From contig QHVT01000011.1 of the NCBI GenBank assembly GCA_003223645.1, forward strand, positions 62,001-126,000: a stretch of 64,000 bases of DNA, in the 5' to 3' direction. Below, piece by piece: positions 28,371-63,162 of the stretch (its first letter is position 1; every line of letters starts with the position of its first letter). The notes beneath the pieces were generated by a model. The model was not told where the DNA came from, did not search any database, and saw nothing but the letters and a program-made list of their open reading frames with translations. This stretch comes from Acidobacteriota bacterium (GTDB taxonomy: Bacteria > Acidobacteriota > Thermoanaerobaculia > Gp7-AA8). The translations under genes were made by a program, and so were the position numbers.

Positions 28371-28476
28371 GGATGGCCTAGCGGATGGCAGATGGCGGAT
28401 GGCAGATGGCGGTCTTCTAATTCGGTTCTGCCATCCGCCGTCCGCCATCTGCCATCTGCCATCCGCTAGGCCATCC
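28371..28476. repeat. Inverted repeat, GGCAGAT family, in a divergent promoter region
   Basis: The outer 26 nt of each arm are exact complements, starting GGATGGCCTAGCGGATGG; the inner parts are 7-bp units GATGGCA/GATGGCG. It occupies most of the gap between divergent preA (start 28306) and the permease gene (start 28494). Confidence 0.93.
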
Positions 28477-31938: not shown

Positions 31939-31942
31939 GAAC

Positions 31943-32038
31943 CTATAGGACGAATAGGACCTCTAGGACGAATAGGACCTCTAGGAGCTATGAGTCCTAT
32001 CGGTCCTATATGTCCTATTGGTCCTAGAGGTCCTATTA
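31943..32038. repeat. Inverted repeat, TAGGACGAA family
   Basis: 9-bp units (GACGAATAG, GACCTCTAG) form the left arm and TCCTAT-type units the right. It lies between convergent genes and contains the stop codon of the glutamate dehydrogenase gene (TAA at 32038-32036). Confidence 0.92.
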
Positions 32039-35498: not shown

Positions 35499-35589
35499 CC
35501 GGATGGCAGATGGCAGATGGCAGATGGCCACCCACCTATTGCCACCGCCATCTGCCATCTGCCATCCGCCATCCGCCATCCGCCATCCG
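35499..35589. repeat. Inverted repeat, GGCAGAT family, in a divergent promoter region
   Basis: Left arm 35499-35528 and right arm 35546-35589 consist of 7-bp units GGCAGAT and their complement GCCATCT/GCCATCC, with CCGGATGGC / GCCATCCGG ends. It lies between divergent mmsA and the permease gene. Confidence 0.93.
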
Positions 35590-37782: not shown

Positions 37783-39027
37783 ATGGATCGTGAAATCGCC
37801 CCCGAAGTTCGCAGGCGCAGGATCGTGCGGCGCGTCGCCGTCGCGATCATCGCCGTGGCCGCGGTCGTCTTTTCGTTCGCGGCGACGATTCAGTGGCTGC
37901 GCCCTTCGATCCATCGCAGCGACATCCGCATCGCGCGAGTGGAGCGCGGCTCCGTCGACGCGACCCTGCAGGCGAGCGGCACGATCGTTCCGCTCGTCGA
38001 GCAGGTCGTGTCGAGTCCCGTCGAGGCGCGCGTGCTGCGCATCGGACGTCACGCCGGCGATCGCGTGCATGCCGGCGACGAACTTCTGACGCTCGACACC
38101 GCGTCGACGCGCCTCGATGCCGAGCGCTTGCGCGAGCGTGTCGCGCAGAAGGAAAGCGAGAGCGCGCAGTTGCGACTGCACGTCGATGAAGACGTGGCCA
38201 CACTCGCCGCGCAGATCGAGCAGAAGAAGCTCGACGTGCAGATCCTGCACTACACGTCCGATCAGAAATCGAAGTTGCGCGAGGCGGGACTCGCATCCGA
38301 ACAGGAAGCGCTCGCAGCCGCGGCCGCGGCGAAGAAGAGCGACATCGAGCTGCGCCAACTCGAGGATGCGCTCGCGCGCTCGAAGCGCTCGCGCGACGCG
38401 CAGCTCGCGGGCGCGCAGATGGATCTCAACATCGCGCGTCGCGAGCATGAAGCATCCGAACATCAACTGCAGCTCGCGATGTTGCGAGCGGAGCGCGACG
38501 GCGTGCTGACGTCGATCGTGAGCGAAGAAGGGGCGACAGTGCGTCGCGGCGACATCCTCGCGCGCGTCGCCGACCTCTCATCGTTCCGCGTCGCCGCGAC
38601 GATCTCCGATCTGCACGCGGCCAAGCTCGCGCCGGGAATGCGCGCCCGCGTCAAGCTCGCCGAAGGCCGGATCCTCGGCGGCAGCATCACCGCGGTCGAT
38701 CCGCGCATCGAAGGCGGCGTCGTCCGCTTCACGGTCGCGCTCGACGAGCCCGCGTATCCGTCGCTGCGCAACAACATCCGTGCGGACGTCTTTGTCATCA
38801 CCGGCGTCCGCACCAACACGCTTCGCGCCCCCCGCGGCGCCCTCGGCCAGGGCTCATCCGAAGATCTCTTTGTCGTGCGCGGCGACAAGGCCGTGCGAAG
38901 AAACGTCCGCTACGGAATCGTCGGCGACGACTTCATCGAGATCCTCGATGGCGTCCACGAACGCGACGAAGTCGTGATCTCGAACATGAACGATTACGCC
39001 GGAGTGAAAGAGCTCCGGCTCAAGTGA
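37783..39027 (+). CDS. Periplasmic adaptor (HlyD/MacA-like membrane fusion protein)
   Basis: This 414-residue protein has one N-terminal membrane anchor (VAVAIIAVAAVVFSFAATI), a split lipoyl/barrel domain (EARVLRIGRHAGDRVHAGDELLTLD and DGVLTSIVSEEGATVRRGDILA) and a long alpha-helical hairpin about residues 110-230. It would link the inner-membrane ABC permeases to an outer-membrane channel; no TolC-like gene is in the window. It begins the operon that continues with ATPase and two permeases. No clear ribosome binding site precedes the ATG. Confidence 0.9.
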   Translation: MDREIAPEVRRRRIVRRVAVAIIAVAAVVFSFAATIQWLRPSIHRSDIRIARVERGSVDATLQASGTIVPLVEQVVSSPVEARVLRIGRHAGDRVHAGDELLTLDTASTRLDAERLRERVAQKESESAQLRLHVDEDVATLAAQIEQKKLDVQILHYTSDQKSKLREAGLASEQEALAAAAAAKKSDIELRQLEDALARSKRSRDAQLAGAQMDLNIARREHEASEHQLQLAMLRAERDGVLTSIVSEEGATVRRGDILARVADLSSFRVAATISDLHAAKLAPGMRARVKLAEGRILGGSITAVDPRIEGGVVRFTVALDEPAYPSLRNNIRADVFVITGVRTNTLRAPRGALGQGSSEDLFVVRGDKAVRRNVRYGIVGDDFIEILDGVHERDEVVISNMNDYAGVKELRLK

Positions 39028-39030
39028 AAG

Positions 39031-39125
39031 GTGCTGGGTGCTGAGTGCAGGGTGCTGGGTGCTGGGTGCTGAGGAGCAAAGCTTCTAACCCAGCACCCAG
39101 CACCCAGCACGCAGCACGTGGCACC
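39031..39125. repeat. Inverted repeat, GGTGCTG family, inside the ABC operon
   Basis: Arms of 7-bp GGTGCTG / CAGCACC units flank the loop GAGCAAAGCTTCTAA. The same loop recurs in 39805-39913. It ends just before the AGGAGGA ribosome binding site of the ATPase gene, so folding could influence translation. Confidence 0.93.
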
Positions 39126-39804: not shown

Positions 39805-39913
39805 GGTGCAGGTGATGAGTGCTGAGTGCTGAGTGCAGGGTGCTGAGGAGCAAAGCTTCTAACCCAGCACCCAGCACCCAGCACCCAGCACTCTGCACCC
39901 AGCACTCAGCACC
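39805..39913. repeat. Inverted repeat, GGTGCTG family, second copy in the ABC operon
   Basis: Left arm units are GAGTGCT/GGTGCTG; right arm units are CAGCACC/CAGCACT. The loop sequence GAGCAAAGCTTCTAA is identical to that at 39031-39125, although arm lengths differ. Confidence 0.93.
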
Positions 39914-39928
39914 CGAAAGGAATCATGC

Positions 39929-42481: not shown

Positions 42482-43885
42482 ATGTCCGCCATTCTCATCG
42501 TCGATGACGACGCGTCGATCACCGCGTCGCTGGCGCTGCTGCTGAAGCAGCACGGCTATCGATCCGTGTCCGCGCATTCTCAGGTCGAGGCGCTCGCGGC
42601 GTTGCGTCGCGAGCGTCCACGCCTCGTGATCCAGGACATGAACTTCAGCCGGCAGACGAGCGGCGAAGAGGGACTCGACTTGCTCGAGCGCATCCGCGCC
42701 GCGGAGCCGTCGCTGCCCGTCATCCTCATCACCGCGTGGGGATCGATCGCGCTCGCGGTCGAAGGGATGAAGCGCGGCGCGGCCGACTTCATTACCAAGC
42801 CGTGGTCGAACGCGACGGTGATCCAGTCGATCGAGACGACGCTGAAGCTCGCGGACTCGCGCGCGCCGGAATCGAGTCTCACGCGCGCGGAGCTTGACGA
42901 GCAGTACGACTTCTCGAACATCATCGGCTCCGACGCGAAGATGGTGCGTCTCCTCGAGATGATCGGCCGCGTCGCGCCGACCGATGCCTCGGTGCTGATC
43001 ACGGGCGAGAGCGGTACTGGCAAAGAGCTCGTGGCCGAGGCGCTGCATCGCAACAGCCGCCGGCGCGGCGGCGCGTTCGTGAAGGTGAACCTCGGCGGGA
43101 TCTCGTCGACGTTGTTCGAGAGCGAAATGTTCGGACACGTGCGCGGCGCGTTCACCGACGCGCGCGAAACGCGACGCGGACGATTCGAGACGGCTGACGG
43201 CGGGACGATTTTTCTCGATGAGATCGGCGAGCTCGATGCGCAATCGCAGGTGAAGCTGCTGCGCGTGTTGCAGGACCGCACGTTCGAAGTCCTCGGCACG
43301 AGCCGTCCGCGCACCGTCGACGTGCGCGTCGTCGCGGCGACGAATCGCACGCTGCACGAGATGGTGCAGCGCGGCGAGTTTCGCGAAGACCTCTTGTATC
43401 GACTGAACCTCATCAACATCCACCTGCCGCCGCTGCGCGATCGCCGCGGCGACATCCCGCCGCTCGTCAATCACTTCCGGGGGCTCGCGAATGAAGCGTA
43501 CGGAACGAGCGTCGAGTCGATCTCCACGCGAGCGATGGACTGGCTGCGCTCGGGTACGTGGCCGGGCAACATCCGTCAGCTAAAACAGACGATCGAACGC
43601 GCGCTATTGATCCGCGGCGGCCGCGAGCTCGACGTCGACGACTTCTTCGCGGTCCGCGACGCCGCGTCCGCGCCGGCGCCCGACGTCGCGCTCCCCGAGG
43701 CGGGCACGATCACGCTCGACGAACTGGAGAAGCGGATGATCGAGAAGTGCCTGAAGCACTACGAAGGCAACATCTCGCGCATGGCCGAGGCGCTGGGACT
43801 CTCGCGGGCGGCGTTGTACCGGCGGTTCGAGAAGTATGGGATCGAGGTGAAAGCAGAAAGCAGAAATCAGAAAGCAGAAAGCTAA
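42482..43885 (+). CDS. NtrC-family sigma-54-dependent response regulator
   Basis: This 467-residue regulator has a receiver domain with phosphoacceptor Asp52 (LVIQDMNFS), an AAA+ domain with Walker A GESGTGKE, Walker B GGTIFLDEIGEL, and a C-terminal Fis-type helix-turn-helix (GNISRMAEALGLSRAALYRRF). The sigma-54 contact loop reads GAFTDA instead of GAFTGA, a variant known from some regulators. The last residues (KAESRNQKAES) are encoded by the inverted repeat at 43850. Position after the exporter suggests it activates that operon with the kinase encoded downstream. Confidence 0.93.
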   Translation: MSAILIVDDDASITASLALLLKQHGYRSVSAHSQVEALAALRRERPRLVIQDMNFSRQTSGEEGLDLLERIRAAEPSLPVILITAWGSIALAVEGMKRGAADFITKPWSNATVIQSIETTLKLADSRAPESSLTRAELDEQYDFSNIIGSDAKMVRLLEMIGRVAPTDASVLITGESGTGKELVAEALHRNSRRRGGAFVKVNLGGISSTLFESEMFGHVRGAFTDARETRRGRFETADGGTIFLDEIGELDAQSQVKLLRVLQDRTFEVLGTSRPRTVDVRVVAATNRTLHEMVQRGEFREDLLYRLNLINIHLPPLRDRRGDIPPLVNHFRGLANEAYGTSVESISTRAMDWLRSGTWPGNIRQLKQTIERALLIRGGRELDVDDFFAVRDAASAPAPDVALPEAGTITLDELEKRMIEKCLKHYEGNISRMAEALGLSRAALYRRFEKYGIEVKAESRNQKAES

Positions 43886-43943
43886 AAAAGAACGTTCTGC
43901 TTCTTGCCGTCCTTTCTGCTTTTTGATTTCTGCTTTCTGATTT
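43850..43943. repeat. Inverted repeat, GCAGAAA family, overlapping the regulator 3' end
   Basis: 7-bp GCAGAAA/TCAGAAA units pair with TTTCTGC/TTTCTGA units, with an inner palindrome AGAACGTTCT. The left arm is read as the C-terminus of the NtrC-like protein, and the right arm ends 5 bp before the kinase ATG. Confidence 0.92.
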
Positions 43944-47456: not shown

Positions 47457-48221
47457 TTACACGTTGGGTTGTTGGTAACTCGCGGCGGTCTTCCCGCGGA
47501 CGTTGGCCCGCACGACGCGCAGCTTCAGGACCAGCCCTTTTGCTTCCACGCGCTTCTGGATCGCGCGAAGCTCGTTCGCGCTGACCTGCGAGGGCGCGTG
47601 TGCGATCTGCATCAGCACCGGCTCGAGATCGTCGAGGAGCGTGGCCACGTTCTCCTCGCCGCGATCTTCGGCGCTTCGGCGGTACAGTCGATTGCTCGCC
47701 AGCAGCCCCTCGGCGCGCGCGCGCTCCGGTCCGATGTCGAGCCCCTCTTCCGGTTTCAGATTCGACAGCTCGACCAGGATGCGCTCCGAATCATCGAAGT
47801 GTTCGTTGATGACGACGAGAAGGATGCGGTCGCGCTGCCGTTGCTGGTTTTGTTGTTGACTGACGATTTGATTCGGCGATTGCGCCGGCTTGCTGACGCT
47901 CTGCGGCGCGACGGCGCGGTTCTCGCGCTGCCAAAACAGTCCCGCGACGAAGGCCAGCGCCACGACGGCAGCGACTGCGCCCCAGCGGATCCACTCCCTG
48001 CGACGCTCGCGTTTCTTCTCGCCGCGCAGGCGCCACTCGAGGCGCTGCCAGACGCGCGACTCGTAGTCCGCATCCGGCTCCGGAACTTCGGGCGCATCGA
48101 CGCGGTCGAGCACGGCCGCGATGCGTGCGAGCTCGGTGCGGCATTCTTCGCAGTCATCGAGGTGCGCGAAGCGCTCGCCGTAGTAAGCCATGACGATTTC
48201 TTCCTGTGTGACATGGTTCAT
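47457..48221 (-). CDS. Anti-sigma factor with zinc-binding motif
   Basis: This 254-residue membrane protein has an N-terminal HxxxCxxC motif (HLDDCEEC) typical of zinc anti-sigma domains, one membrane helix (GAVAAVVALAFVAGLFW, about residues 80-98) and a Gln-rich then helical periplasmic domain. It overlaps the sigma factor gene by 4 bp (ATGA). It should bind and hold that sigma factor at the membrane until an envelope signal arrives. Confidence 0.88.
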   Translation of the reverse strand: MNHVTQEEIVMAYYGERFAHLDDCEECRTELARIAAVLDRVDAPEVPEPDADYESRVWQRLEWRLRGEKKRERRREWIRWGAVAAVVALAFVAGLFWQRENRAVAPQSVSKPAQSPNQIVSQQQNQQRQRDRILLVVINEHFDDSERILVELSNLKPEEGLDIGPERARAEGLLASNRLYRRSAEDRGEENVATLLDDLEPVLMQIAHAPSQVSANELRAIQKRVEAKGLVLKLRVVRANVRGKTAASYQQPNV

Positions 48222-48778
48222 GACGCGGATCCTGTAAATGGTTGCAGCCGCTCGCGCAGCTTGGTTACCGCGCGAAAGATCGTGTTCTTCGTCGCGTTGG
48301 TCTTGATGCCGAGGATGGCGCCGATCTCTTCGAGAGGGACGCCTTCGAAATGGCGGAGGACGAATGCGGTGCGCTCGTTGCCGCTCATCGCCTGCAGCGC
48401 CGCGGCGATGGCGCGCTGCATCTGCGCGCCGAGGACGACGCGCTCGGGGGAGGCGTCCTGCGAGACGAGCTCGCTCAGATCGTCGCTCGAGTCGTGGCGG
48501 GCCTCGCGGCGTTTGCGCGAGTCGAGAAGATCGAGCGCGCAGTTGACGGCGATGCGGTGCGCCCAGGTGGTGAAACTCGCGCGGCCGTCGTAGGTGTGGA
48601 GCGAGCGATACGCGCGAAGAAACGTCTCCTGCACGACGTCATCCGCGTCGGCGGAGTTGGAGGTGATGCGGTACGCCGTGCGGTAAATCCCGCGCGAGTG
48701 CCGCTCGACGAGCAGGCGGAACGCGTCGTCATCCCCGCCGCGCGCGCGCTCCACCAGCTCGAGGTCCGTCGTTTCCAT
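48218..48778 (-). CDS. ECF-type RNA polymerase sigma factor
   Basis: The 186-residue sigma factor has region 2 (DDAFRLLVERHSRGIYRTAYR and DADDVVQETFLRAYRSLHTY, with FTTWAHRIAVNCALDLL) and region 4 (MSGNERTAFVLRHFEG and LEEIGAILGI with the basic helix KNTIFRAVTKLRERL). The ATG at 48778 is preferred; a TTG at 48787 adds three residues. It probably controls its own operon, including the anti-sigma and HEAT-repeat genes. Its upstream region contains the large repeat block 48844-49489. Confidence 0.92.
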   Translation of the reverse strand: METTDLELVERARGGDDDAFRLLVERHSRGIYRTAYRITSNSADADDVVQETFLRAYRSLHTYDGRASFTTWAHRIAVNCALDLLDSRKRREARHDSSDDLSELVSQDASPERVVLGAQMQRAIAAALQAMSGNERTAFVLRHFEGVPLEEIGAILGIKTNATKNTIFRAVTKLRERLQPFTGSAS

Positions 48779-48843
48779 TCCGACCAAGTTTGACCGGACG
48801 GGACGAGAATAGTTAGCCGCCCGGCCTCCTGACCTCCTAGACG

Positions 48844-48958
48844 TTGCGCGGCAGAAACGGCCATCTCAGGCGCGTTGCGCCGCTCGAAGCCGCATTCGTG
48901 ACGTGGCGGCAAGCAGGCCGTAGGCGGAGCAACCCACCCAGCCGCTCGTTGCGGCTAG
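48844..48958. repeat. 115-bp direct repeat, copy A
   Basis: This copy runs from TTGCGCGGCAGAAACG to GCGGCTAG and matches copy B at 49374-49489 with about ten differences and one 1-bp indel. The internal core CTCAGGCGCGTTGCGCC is shared without change. Confidence 0.95.
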
Positions 48959-48986
48959 ATCACGCCCACGGCTTGACCCATATGAC

Positions 48987-49280
48987 GGAAACTGGCGATC
49001 CGCACGCGGGAACTGGCAATCCGCACTCGTGAAATGGCAAAACGCAGTCGTGAAATGGCAATCCACACTCGTGAAATGGCAAAACACAGTCGTGTAATGG
49101 CGAAACACACTCGTGAAATGCCAAAACGCACTCGTGAAATGGCAAAACACAGTCGTGAAATGGCAAAACACAGCCGTGAAATGGCAAAACGCAGTCGTGA
49201 AATGGCAAAACACACTCGTGAAATGGCAATCCGCACGCGTGAAATGGCGATCCGCACGCGAACCGGCGCTCCGCGCGCGC
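48987..49280. repeat. Minisatellite, 14 units of exactly 21 bp
   Basis: The units begin at 48987 and recur every 21 bp without any indel. The consensus starts GTGAAATGGCAAAACGCA; the first two and the last are degenerate. Most variation falls at the AAAACGC/AATCCGC/AAAACAC and AGT/ACT/ACG positions. Confidence 0.97.
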
Positions 49281-49373
49281 AAACTGCCGATTCGGAACGT
49301 GCGACTTACGCCGTATTACTGCTTCACTGCCGCGCAGGCTCCTAGGCGGCCAGGAGGCTCGGAGGCTCGGAGT

Positions 49374-49489
49374 TTGCGCGGCAGAAACGACGATCTCAGG
49401 CGCGTTGCGCCGCTCGAAGCCGCATTCGTGACGTGGCGGCAAGCAGGCCGCAAGGCGGAGCAATCCACGCAGCCGCCCGTGGCGGCTAG
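49374..49489. repeat. 116-bp direct repeat, copy B
   Basis: This is the same element and orientation as copy A, about 530 bp apart. Its right end (GCGGCTAG) includes the stop codon of the DUF3347-like gene, TAG at 49488-49486. Confidence 0.95.
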
Positions 49490-49902
49490 TCCTTCGTGAG
49501 CCACATCCCGCACTCTTTCATCGCCGGCTCGTACGGGTTGGCGATCTCTTCTTTGTTTGACTGCAGCCAGCGTTTCTTCGCCATCGGGCAGTAGGCGACT
49601 GCAGGCTTGTCGCCGGTCGCGGCTGCCCGAAACTTGACCATCTCGTCGGAAAGGAGGCCGAATGCCGTGCGCGCCTTCTCGAGGTCGGTGCTCGTTGCGA
49701 CGCTGTCGGCCGCTTTCGCGATCGTGTCGTTCTTCGCTTCGGTCGCCGCGGCCGAGAGCGCCTTCGCGCTCGACTGCACGTCTTTCAGCGAGTTCTTCAG
49801 CAATCCCTGGCGGATCGCTTCATATTTCGAGAAAACCGCGGGATTCGCGAAGAGAAGAGGCGCAGCGAGAGCGAAGAGGACGATCGGGAGGACGCGTTTC
49901 AT
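49486..49902 (-). CDS. Secreted DUF3347-like protein, 138 aa
   Basis: A signal peptide (MKRVLPIVLFALAAPLLFA) is followed by a helical domain with the C-terminal pattern YCPMAKKRW...IANPYEPAMKECG, which matches the DUF3347 pattern seen at the end of some copper-efflux adaptors and in small periplasmic proteins. The conserved Cys and Met residues could bind metal. The ATG at 49902 is chosen because it opens the signal peptide; the longer frame to 49956 overlaps the neighbouring gene. Confidence 0.75.
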   Translation of the reverse strand: MKRVLPIVLFALAAPLLFANPAVFSKYEAIRQGLLKNSLKDVQSSAKALSAAATEAKNDTIAKAADSVATSTDLEKARTAFGLLSDEMVKFRAAATGDKPAVAYCPMAKKRWLQSNKEEIANPYEPAMKECGMWLTKD

Positions 49903-53752: not shown

Positions 53753-53862
53753 GTGGATAGGACAAATAGGACAGATAGGACGAATAGGACGGATAGGACG
53801 AAGGACTTCCTATCTGTCCTATTCGTCCTATCTGTCCTATTTGTCCTATTTGTCCTATCCGC
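53753..53862. repeat. Inverted repeat, TAGGACGAA family
   Basis: GATAGGACAAATAGGAC-type units on the left pair with TCCTATTTGTCCTATCC-type units on the right. It includes the stop codon of the kinase gene (TAG at 53857-53855) and lies between kinase and regulator on the same strand. Confidence 0.93.
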
Positions 53863-62994: not shown

Positions 62995-63162
62995 CGCCCG
63001 ATGGCGGCTGCGCTGATGGCGGATGGCGGATGGCAGCTGCGCTGATGGCGGATGGCAGATGGCAGATGGCAGAGGTGATGAAGTGCTCATATTGATCTTT
63101 CCACTTTTGCCATCTGCCATCTGCCATCCGCCATCCGCCATCAGCGCAGCCGCCATCGGGCG
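62995..63162. repeat. Inverted repeat, GGCAGAT family, longest copy
   Basis: The outermost 42 nt of the two arms are exact complements (starting CGCCCGATGGCGGCTGCGC). The left arm carries an extra internal duplication of about 22 nt. The loop is about 35 nt. It lies between the PspA-like gene and the 266-residue membrane protein gene. Confidence 0.95.

Follow-up and report, generated by a model that had tools for sequence, protein, structure and literature searches.

The window analysed here, a 64,000-nucleotide stretch of an Acidobacteriota genome (class Thermoanaerobaculia; contig QHVT01000011.1, positions 62,001 to 126,000 of the forward strand), contains a block of repeats between two minus-strand genes, one for an ECF sigma factor and the other for a DUF3347-like protein. 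A 21-bp minisatellite held between two end modules is flanked on either side by one copy of a second, dispersed element, as follows (window coordinates):

48218–48778, minus strand: ECF sigma factor gene, a neighbour outside the element (Pfam and gene call)
48789–48818, minus strand: likely ECF autoregulatory promoter, GGCTAAC-N17-GTCAAA, apart from the repeat block
48837–48958, minus strand: first copy of a dispersed element of about 122–124 bp, with boundaries from comparing copies
48844–48958: the 115-bp repeat of the preliminary description of this DNA, within the first copy
48959–49345, plus strand: whole array element (left end, 21-bp array and right end), with sharp loss of identity at both borders
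48959–48986, plus strand: left-end module ATCACGCCCACGGCTT(C)AGCCCATATG, slightly altered in the window (GGCTTGACCC)
48987–49259, plus strand: 13 tandem 21-bp units in strict register, core GTGAAATGGCAAAACACAGTC
49260–49280, plus strand: degenerate 14th unit, with 2 bp deleted relative to homologous loci
49279–49345, plus strand: right-end module GCAAACTGCCGATTCGGAACGTGCGACTTACGCCGTATTACTGCTTYACTGCCGCGCAGGCTCCTAG, from a nine-locus alignment and 30-bp exact copies
49327–49345, plus strand: terminal motif CTGCCGCGCAGGCTCCTAG, found also in the 115-bp family and in 24 of 148 same-class genomes
49366–49489, minus strand: second copy of the dispersed element of about 122–124 bp, in which the 115-bp repeat is 49374–49489
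49486–49902, minus strand: neighbouring gene, DUF3347-like, under the cut-off (24.6 against 25.5 bits)

The preliminary description placed this block directly upstream of an ECF sigma factor gene and ending on the stop codon of the neighbouring gene, and both statements hold: Sigma70_r2 (E 1.7e-22) and Sigma70_r4_2 (E 8.1e-12) are matched in the former gene, and the stop codon of the latter is the TAG from the CTAG of the second 115-bp copy. The minisatellite is likewise genuine, being reported by TRF at 49001–49248 with period 21, 11.8 copies, 85% matches, 0% indels and a score of 321. Of the 14 indel-free units originally counted, 13 stand, whereas the last mismatches the core consensus at 15 of 21 positions and has lost 2 bp (GCACGC--GAACCGG, compared by eye with the same place in L118 and L125). 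The edge units of the array are diverged and GC-rich. Gene borders throughout are those of a home-made codon-usage caller, trained on the organism's own genome (G000) and applied to the other genomes too; it places zero genes in 48779–49485, and the possibility that the array is part of a translated gene was rejected on this ground. The two direct 115-bp copies around the array are also as described (97% identical over 77 nt and 89% over 37 nt, with an offset of 530/531 that implies one 1-nt indel), although the true element is longer, at about 122–124 bp. The first copy starts at the CTAG of 48955–48958 and ends in a degenerate terminal motif (CTAGACGTTGCGCGGCAG, plus strand). Phage and plasmid collections gave zero matches.

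Distribution of the array element

Searching for the array recovered two more loci with the window unit, on contigs C20 and C41, and the three loci have both ends in common. A 30-bp stretch near the start of the right end occurs in seven exact copies in the organism's own genome, window included, four of which enclose arrays of a second 21-bp unit, TTTTCRTTTGCRACSGGCCYG; the same right end thus encloses two different unit types. The two-unit pattern of this second unit has 215 matches in the genome at three mismatches or fewer. Altogether the genome holds 18 array loci (one with fewer than two units), three built of the first unit and 15 of the second unit or its diverged variants, and TRF copy numbers across them run from 8.1 to 30.4. 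The right end is common to nine of the 18 and is near-identical over about 65 bp, after which identity drops at once. The left end, whose border is just as sharp, is found at five array loci, window included, all of which also have the right end; its pattern has four exact copies elsewhere in the genome, and the window copy lies more than three mismatches away. At four further loci a divergent right end, assigned by eye on printed sequence, runs in the opposite direction relative to the second unit, and at the remaining five neither end was recognised. The array core therefore changes while the ends stay, and it sits in either orientation. This is an architecture of the BOX type, in which fixed modules (right at nine of 18 loci, left at five) surround a variable tandem core, the likeness being one of architecture only.

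In the window element the two ends do not pair as inverted repeats. The terminal motif stands at its right end only, the left end being ATCACGCCC. CTAG borders are common on both sides of the elements. As to target-site duplication, the border tetranucleotides differ between sides in three of the five loci with both ends; at L117, for example, they are CTAG on one side and CTGG on the other. No empty insertion site was seen, the sole same-genus genome (G001) being without the terminal motif. The absence of the block from all relatives, which the preliminary description raised, applies to the two-unit pattern of the window array (absent from 59 relatives at three mismatches or fewer) and fails for the terminal motif and for other 21-bp arrays, which relatives do contain. 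Scanned against wider genome contigs, in a search that may omit records of the organism's own genome, the second-unit pattern had one match, in Parazoarcus communis.

Further arrays lie near the 21-bp arrays (L111:2113-2473, L122:9026-9278, L122:5365-5845, L112:2623-2742 and L121:2515-2561), and include units of 43 bp (at two loci), 22 bp and 21 bp, the last of sequence CTCGCGAGCTAAAA.

Dispersed elements sharing a terminus

The 115-bp sequence has at least 42 matches in the organism's own genome, counting the two window copies and a few partial ones, a lower bound from scoring 40 of 106 candidates. When copies are compared with their flanks, the full unit of this family opens with (C)TAG and the hairpin GCCGCC-ACG-GGCGGC, continues for about 80 bp and closes with TTTCTGCCGCGCAGGCTCCTAG. 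Mean column identity is 92% across 27 aligned copies, in which three predicted pairs show compensated changes (ten cells); two of these pairs belong to the first hairpin and change in one copy each, and the third, outside that hairpin, changes in eight. Covariation contributes little to the predicted structure (-0.68 kcal/mol), in which one pair is broken by the first window copy.

The borders of this element often coincide with stop codons. Scoring covered 24 copies with the TAG-hairpin pattern, from 30 loci (L001–L030) and without the first window copy. In 12 of them the left-border TAG serves exactly as the upstream gene's stop, in nine a minus-strand gene has its stop at the other end, and in 18 one or both borders hold a stop codon. 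In a search of 40 genomes the element has, besides its copies in the organism's own genome, a near-full match only in G003 (78% across 115 of 124 bases), while three further genomes match mainly in the terminal motif. A copy or fragment adjoins four of the 18 array loci, as judged by eye, and two copies are found at the window array alone. The 115-bp repeats are therefore an independent dispersed family and not, as had been supposed, part of one device with the array, and their candidacy as its recombination arms was rejected.

Array element and 115-bp element both close with CTGCCGCGCAGGCTCCTAG. The window contains two matches to this motif with three mismatches or fewer, where 0.06 are expected. 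With one mismatch allowed it occurs in 24 of 148 same-class genomes, including 25 matches in the organism's own genome, 27 in G014 and 47 in G116; a reversed control pattern has one match in each of two of the 148 genomes and none in the rest. Class relatives also contain the motif as inverted-repeat ends (CTAGGAGKCTGCGCGGYAG...CTRCCGCGCAGRCTCCTAG), at L148, L154, L171, L176 and L177, where these ends enclose roughly 100–200 bp. In same-class genomes other than the organism's own, 17 of 37 scored loci have the CTAG of the motif exactly as the stop of a gene on the minus strand; six of these rows represent a single orthologous site, with one place entered twice, and collapsing them gives 12 of 32. 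At L131, L134, L155, L158, L162 and L165 the same motif insertion lies at the stop of seemingly one orthologous gene; as the insertion is the same in five genomes of genus g19, some motif copies are probably old and retained.

No transposase with matching ends was found, in a genome-wide search that covered one transposase family, PF01797, and gave one hit. This sole PF01797 gene (Y1-type, RAYT-like; C4:53122, L127:1501-1812) is flanked by a REP family of its own, TGTGGAGCGGCGCCCGC, different from the elements described here. A RAYT was considered as the mobiliser; the neighbours of this gene belong to that other REP family, and nothing was found that ties it to the CTAG elements.

Two other occurrences of the motif may be recorded: the viral contig IMGVR_UViG_2847832212_000004 carries it (L284:9728-9746), and in G014 a 79-bp element with the motif is present in three copies, head to tail (L185:18081-18320).

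Gene context of the arrays and of the sigma factor gene

The 18 array loci comprise nine convergent, eight co-directional and one divergent gene arrangement, against 42, 117 and 38, respectively, among 197 background gaps. For the arrays alone the convergent excess has a Fisher p of 0.016 and the divergent deficit one of 0.21; with the 24 scored 115-bp copies added, these become 0.0008 and 0.02. A weak gene call overlaps the array at L112, the sole such case among the 18. At seven of the other array loci, none of ten neighbouring genes scanned belongs to a sigma-factor family.

Orthologous sigma genes could be compared in four informative relatives (L282 was left out as too short). A promoter-like pair with the same spacing and similar hexamers, recognised by eye on printed sequence, is present upstream of the orthologue in L279, L280, L281 and L283, and in the window this conserved promoter position falls between the sigma gene and the repeat block. 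In L279 (same genus), L281 and L283 the DNA upstream of the orthologue contains no long array; L283 has a single TRF row there, of 1.9 copies of a 21-bp unit at 606-646. In L280 (G005), an unrelated 21-bp array of 7.7 copies lies 188–348 bp upstream of the orthologous gene; were arrays as dense as in G014, the DNA covered by this comparison should by our arithmetic contain about 0.16 of them.

Period and divergence of the arrays

Across 16 arrays, mismatches to the core consensus fall from 9.9 at the edges to 1.4 in the core, in ranges that take in some module sequence and with a phase shift in L121 that adds mismatches inside that array. A uniform core with diverged edges is the usual pattern of homogenisation by slippage or unequal exchange.

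The preliminary description had also singled out the 21-bp period, and in this it appears borne out, as most long non-coding arrays of unrelated units in sampled DNA of this genus and two others share periods of about 21 (or 41–44, or 63) bp. A census over sampled stretches took in arrays of at least 100 bp whose base period was clear and that no called gene spanned, the window being left out of G000. Periods of 21, 22, 41–44 or 63 were found in 15 of 17 arrays in G014, three of five in G000, three of three in G116, one of one in G001 and none of one in G011, and the samples of G009 and G028 had zero arrays left to count. Against a uniform lag of 6–63, binomial p values are 2e-12 for G014, 0.015 for G000, 0.002 for G116 and 0.12 for G001; the stretches of G014 and G116 were partly picked near motif matches, which biases array density and should affect the distribution of periods less. 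Arrays dropped for an unclear period numbered four of nine in G000, three of 23 in G014, none of two in G001, two of three in G011, one of one in G009, two of three in G028 and one of nine in G116; those then set aside as gene-spanned were three in G014, one in G001, one in G028 and five in G116. By inspection, the unit sequences of the counted arrays have no evident mutual relation.

Discussion

We consider that the block is a pile-up of dispersed non-coding elements at the 3' end of gene 49486–49902, in which the array element is modular and MITE-like, and that it is no dedicated switch of the sigma operon, a reading to which we would assign a probability of about 0.72. The array element would consist of a fixed left module, a variable 21-bp minisatellite and a fixed right module ending in CTGCCGCGCAGGCTCCTAG, and a transposase working in trans on those ends probably copied it to its present site, with insertion favouring CTAG or TAG sites at the ends of genes. 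The flanking 115-bp copies would be a second element that inserted twice, independently. Because this element ends in the motif of the array element, it was probably moved by the same enzyme, and the simplest inference from the sequences is that both elements form a family of non-autonomous elements mobilised by one enzyme; the mobilising IS would carry ends CTAGGAGYCTGCGCGGCAGAAA. Once placed, an array may grow and shrink by slippage or unequal exchange, which would explain why its core is uniform while the edge units have diverged. The ends of these elements are precise, their terminus is common to two families, and the number and even the type of units differ from locus to locus; we infer that the array element itself has no regulatory role.

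The alternative closest to the preliminary description, that the array acts in cis on the ECF sigma operon and is tuned by its unit number, we regard as highly improbable. Position upstream of the sigma gene speaks for it, as does the unrelated 21-bp array upstream of the orthologue in G005. On a model of pure insertion that array has to be a coincidence, which it may be, but of all the results it alone still leaves room for a positional role. Against this, 17 further loci contain the element or its relatives, three of the four informative relatives have no long array upstream of the orthologue, and the divergent, promoter-only setting is rare among the arrays (one of 18). The sigma gene has, moreover, a separate conserved promoter between itself and the block, and the proposed link to the operon is unsupported; an operator array was rejected. 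Gene 3' ends, at which many of these elements lie, would suit a structural RNA, transcribed and folded as a terminator, attenuator or sponge in the way suggested for BOX and REP elements, as would the compensated changes in the 115-bp element and the folding of one second-unit array, which exceeds that of shuffled sequences (z -3.8 and -2.4). The window array (z -0.87 and -0.84) and its end modules (z 0.78 and 1.10) nevertheless fold no better than shuffles, an Rfam search of the window returned no family at gathering score, and we think a role of this kind rather unlikely.

Arguments from the period lead to a different alternative, in which each 21-bp unit, spanning two helical turns, would be a putative site for a protein that coats or bends DNA; selection for phasing would maintain the period, the ends would act as borders of the scaffold, and the sequences would drift along with the protein. 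The recurrence of periods of about 21, 22, 41–44 and 63 bp in G014, G000, G116 and G001 fits such a phased binding array, and so do the dyad-symmetric units CAGTTCATGAACTG in L220 and GTTGCGATGCCGCAAC in L197 (p 0.03 each). Dyad symmetry is not general, however: the window unit forms four of eight pairs (p 0.99, not above shuffles), most second-unit arrays give p values of 0.32–0.53, and general palindromy of the 21-bp units was rejected, the permutation test backing a minority of arrays. The single array counted in G011 has another period, G009 and G028 contributed none, single-base length changes in several arrays would spoil strict phasing, and there is no common sequence for one protein to read. 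We therefore judge this explanation unlikely. The excess of 21-bp periods is consistent with helical phasing, and equally with any process of copying or exchange that has a two-turn step.

Slippage by itself does not explain a period of about 21 bp in arrays of unrelated sequence, and we regard this period as the part of these findings most worth pursuing. It is conceivable, if doubtful, that a dedicated process in this lineage generates or maintains long intergenic arrays at a 21-bp (or 42–44-bp) period whatever their sequence, for instance by way of a chromatin-like scaffold protein or of an enzyme that copies in steps of 21 nt. The vehicles for such two-turn-period arrays would then be the BOX-like elements with their swapped unit families.

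Among known systems, REP and BIME elements are moved by RAYT transposases. The 115-bp element resembles them in its arrangement of a short motif and then a hairpin (TAG-CCGCCACGGGCGG) and in its location at the 3' ends of genes; it differs in that no RAYT gene was met among copies of the same repeat, the one RAYT-like gene of the genome adjoining another REP family. For the array element, the closest published counterpart that we found in the open-licence literature is BrickBuilt of Porphyromonas gingivalis, described as a leader, a tandem 23-nt repeat (1 to 22.8 copies) and a tail, with 19 copies per genome that are always intergenic and some of which are without leader or tail (PMC4596501). 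The same source reports other P. gingivalis MITEs with similar inverted ends and unrelated insides, one of them with 41-nt direct repeats, and a resemblance of the BrickBuilt ends to those of ISPg1/ISPg9 (PMC4596501). Succession of end module, tandem core and end module in many intergenic copies is the likeness, which is one of architecture only. Measured against BrickBuilt as there outlined, the unit is 21 bp here rather than 23 nt, two unit types occur under one right end, the terminus is common with a high-copy 115-bp element that often overlaps stop codons exactly, and no parent comparable to ISPg1/ISPg9 was found here.

BOX of Streptococcus pneumoniae is made up of boxA, a variable tandem core of boxB units and boxC; it is dispersed, and is clustered with and inserted into other small repeats, and in S. 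suis two types of ends surround the same boxB (PMC3049150). Here too the comparison concerns architecture only, namely fixed modules around a variable tandem core; relative to BOX so described, the core unit of our element is 21 bp, the right end of about 65 bp is near-invariant, and structured RNA is unsupported for the window array. A looser parallel to the short-unit arrays of the window is the lineage-specific intergenic heptamer repeat of Beggiatoaceae (PMC4679880). By analogy, the array element appears to work like BrickBuilt and BOX, whose defining architecture it has. No paper on these sequences was found in the open-licence literature, within a search of partial coverage judged by titles and the openings of abstracts.

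These results add another bacterial minisatellite-bearing, MITE-like element, with two unusual traits: the exchange of unit types inside constant ends, and a two-turn period in unrelated arrays of three sampled genera. If it is true that a protein or an enzymatic step sets this period, then a question arises about the packaging of bacterial DNA or the generation of repeats. More practically, they warn that an adjacent gene is, taken alone, no ground for calling such arrays its operators.

A separate class of repeat in the window consists of inverted pairs of short tandem arrays, with units of 7, 9, 14 or 18 bp, which give rise to long potential hairpins. They lie at 1996-2103, 28381-28466, 31941-32037, 35502-35589, 39023-39117, 39806-39914, 43849-43943, 53755-53859 and 63000-63157, and the same inverted-pair design is found inside a terminal-motif element of G116 (L171).
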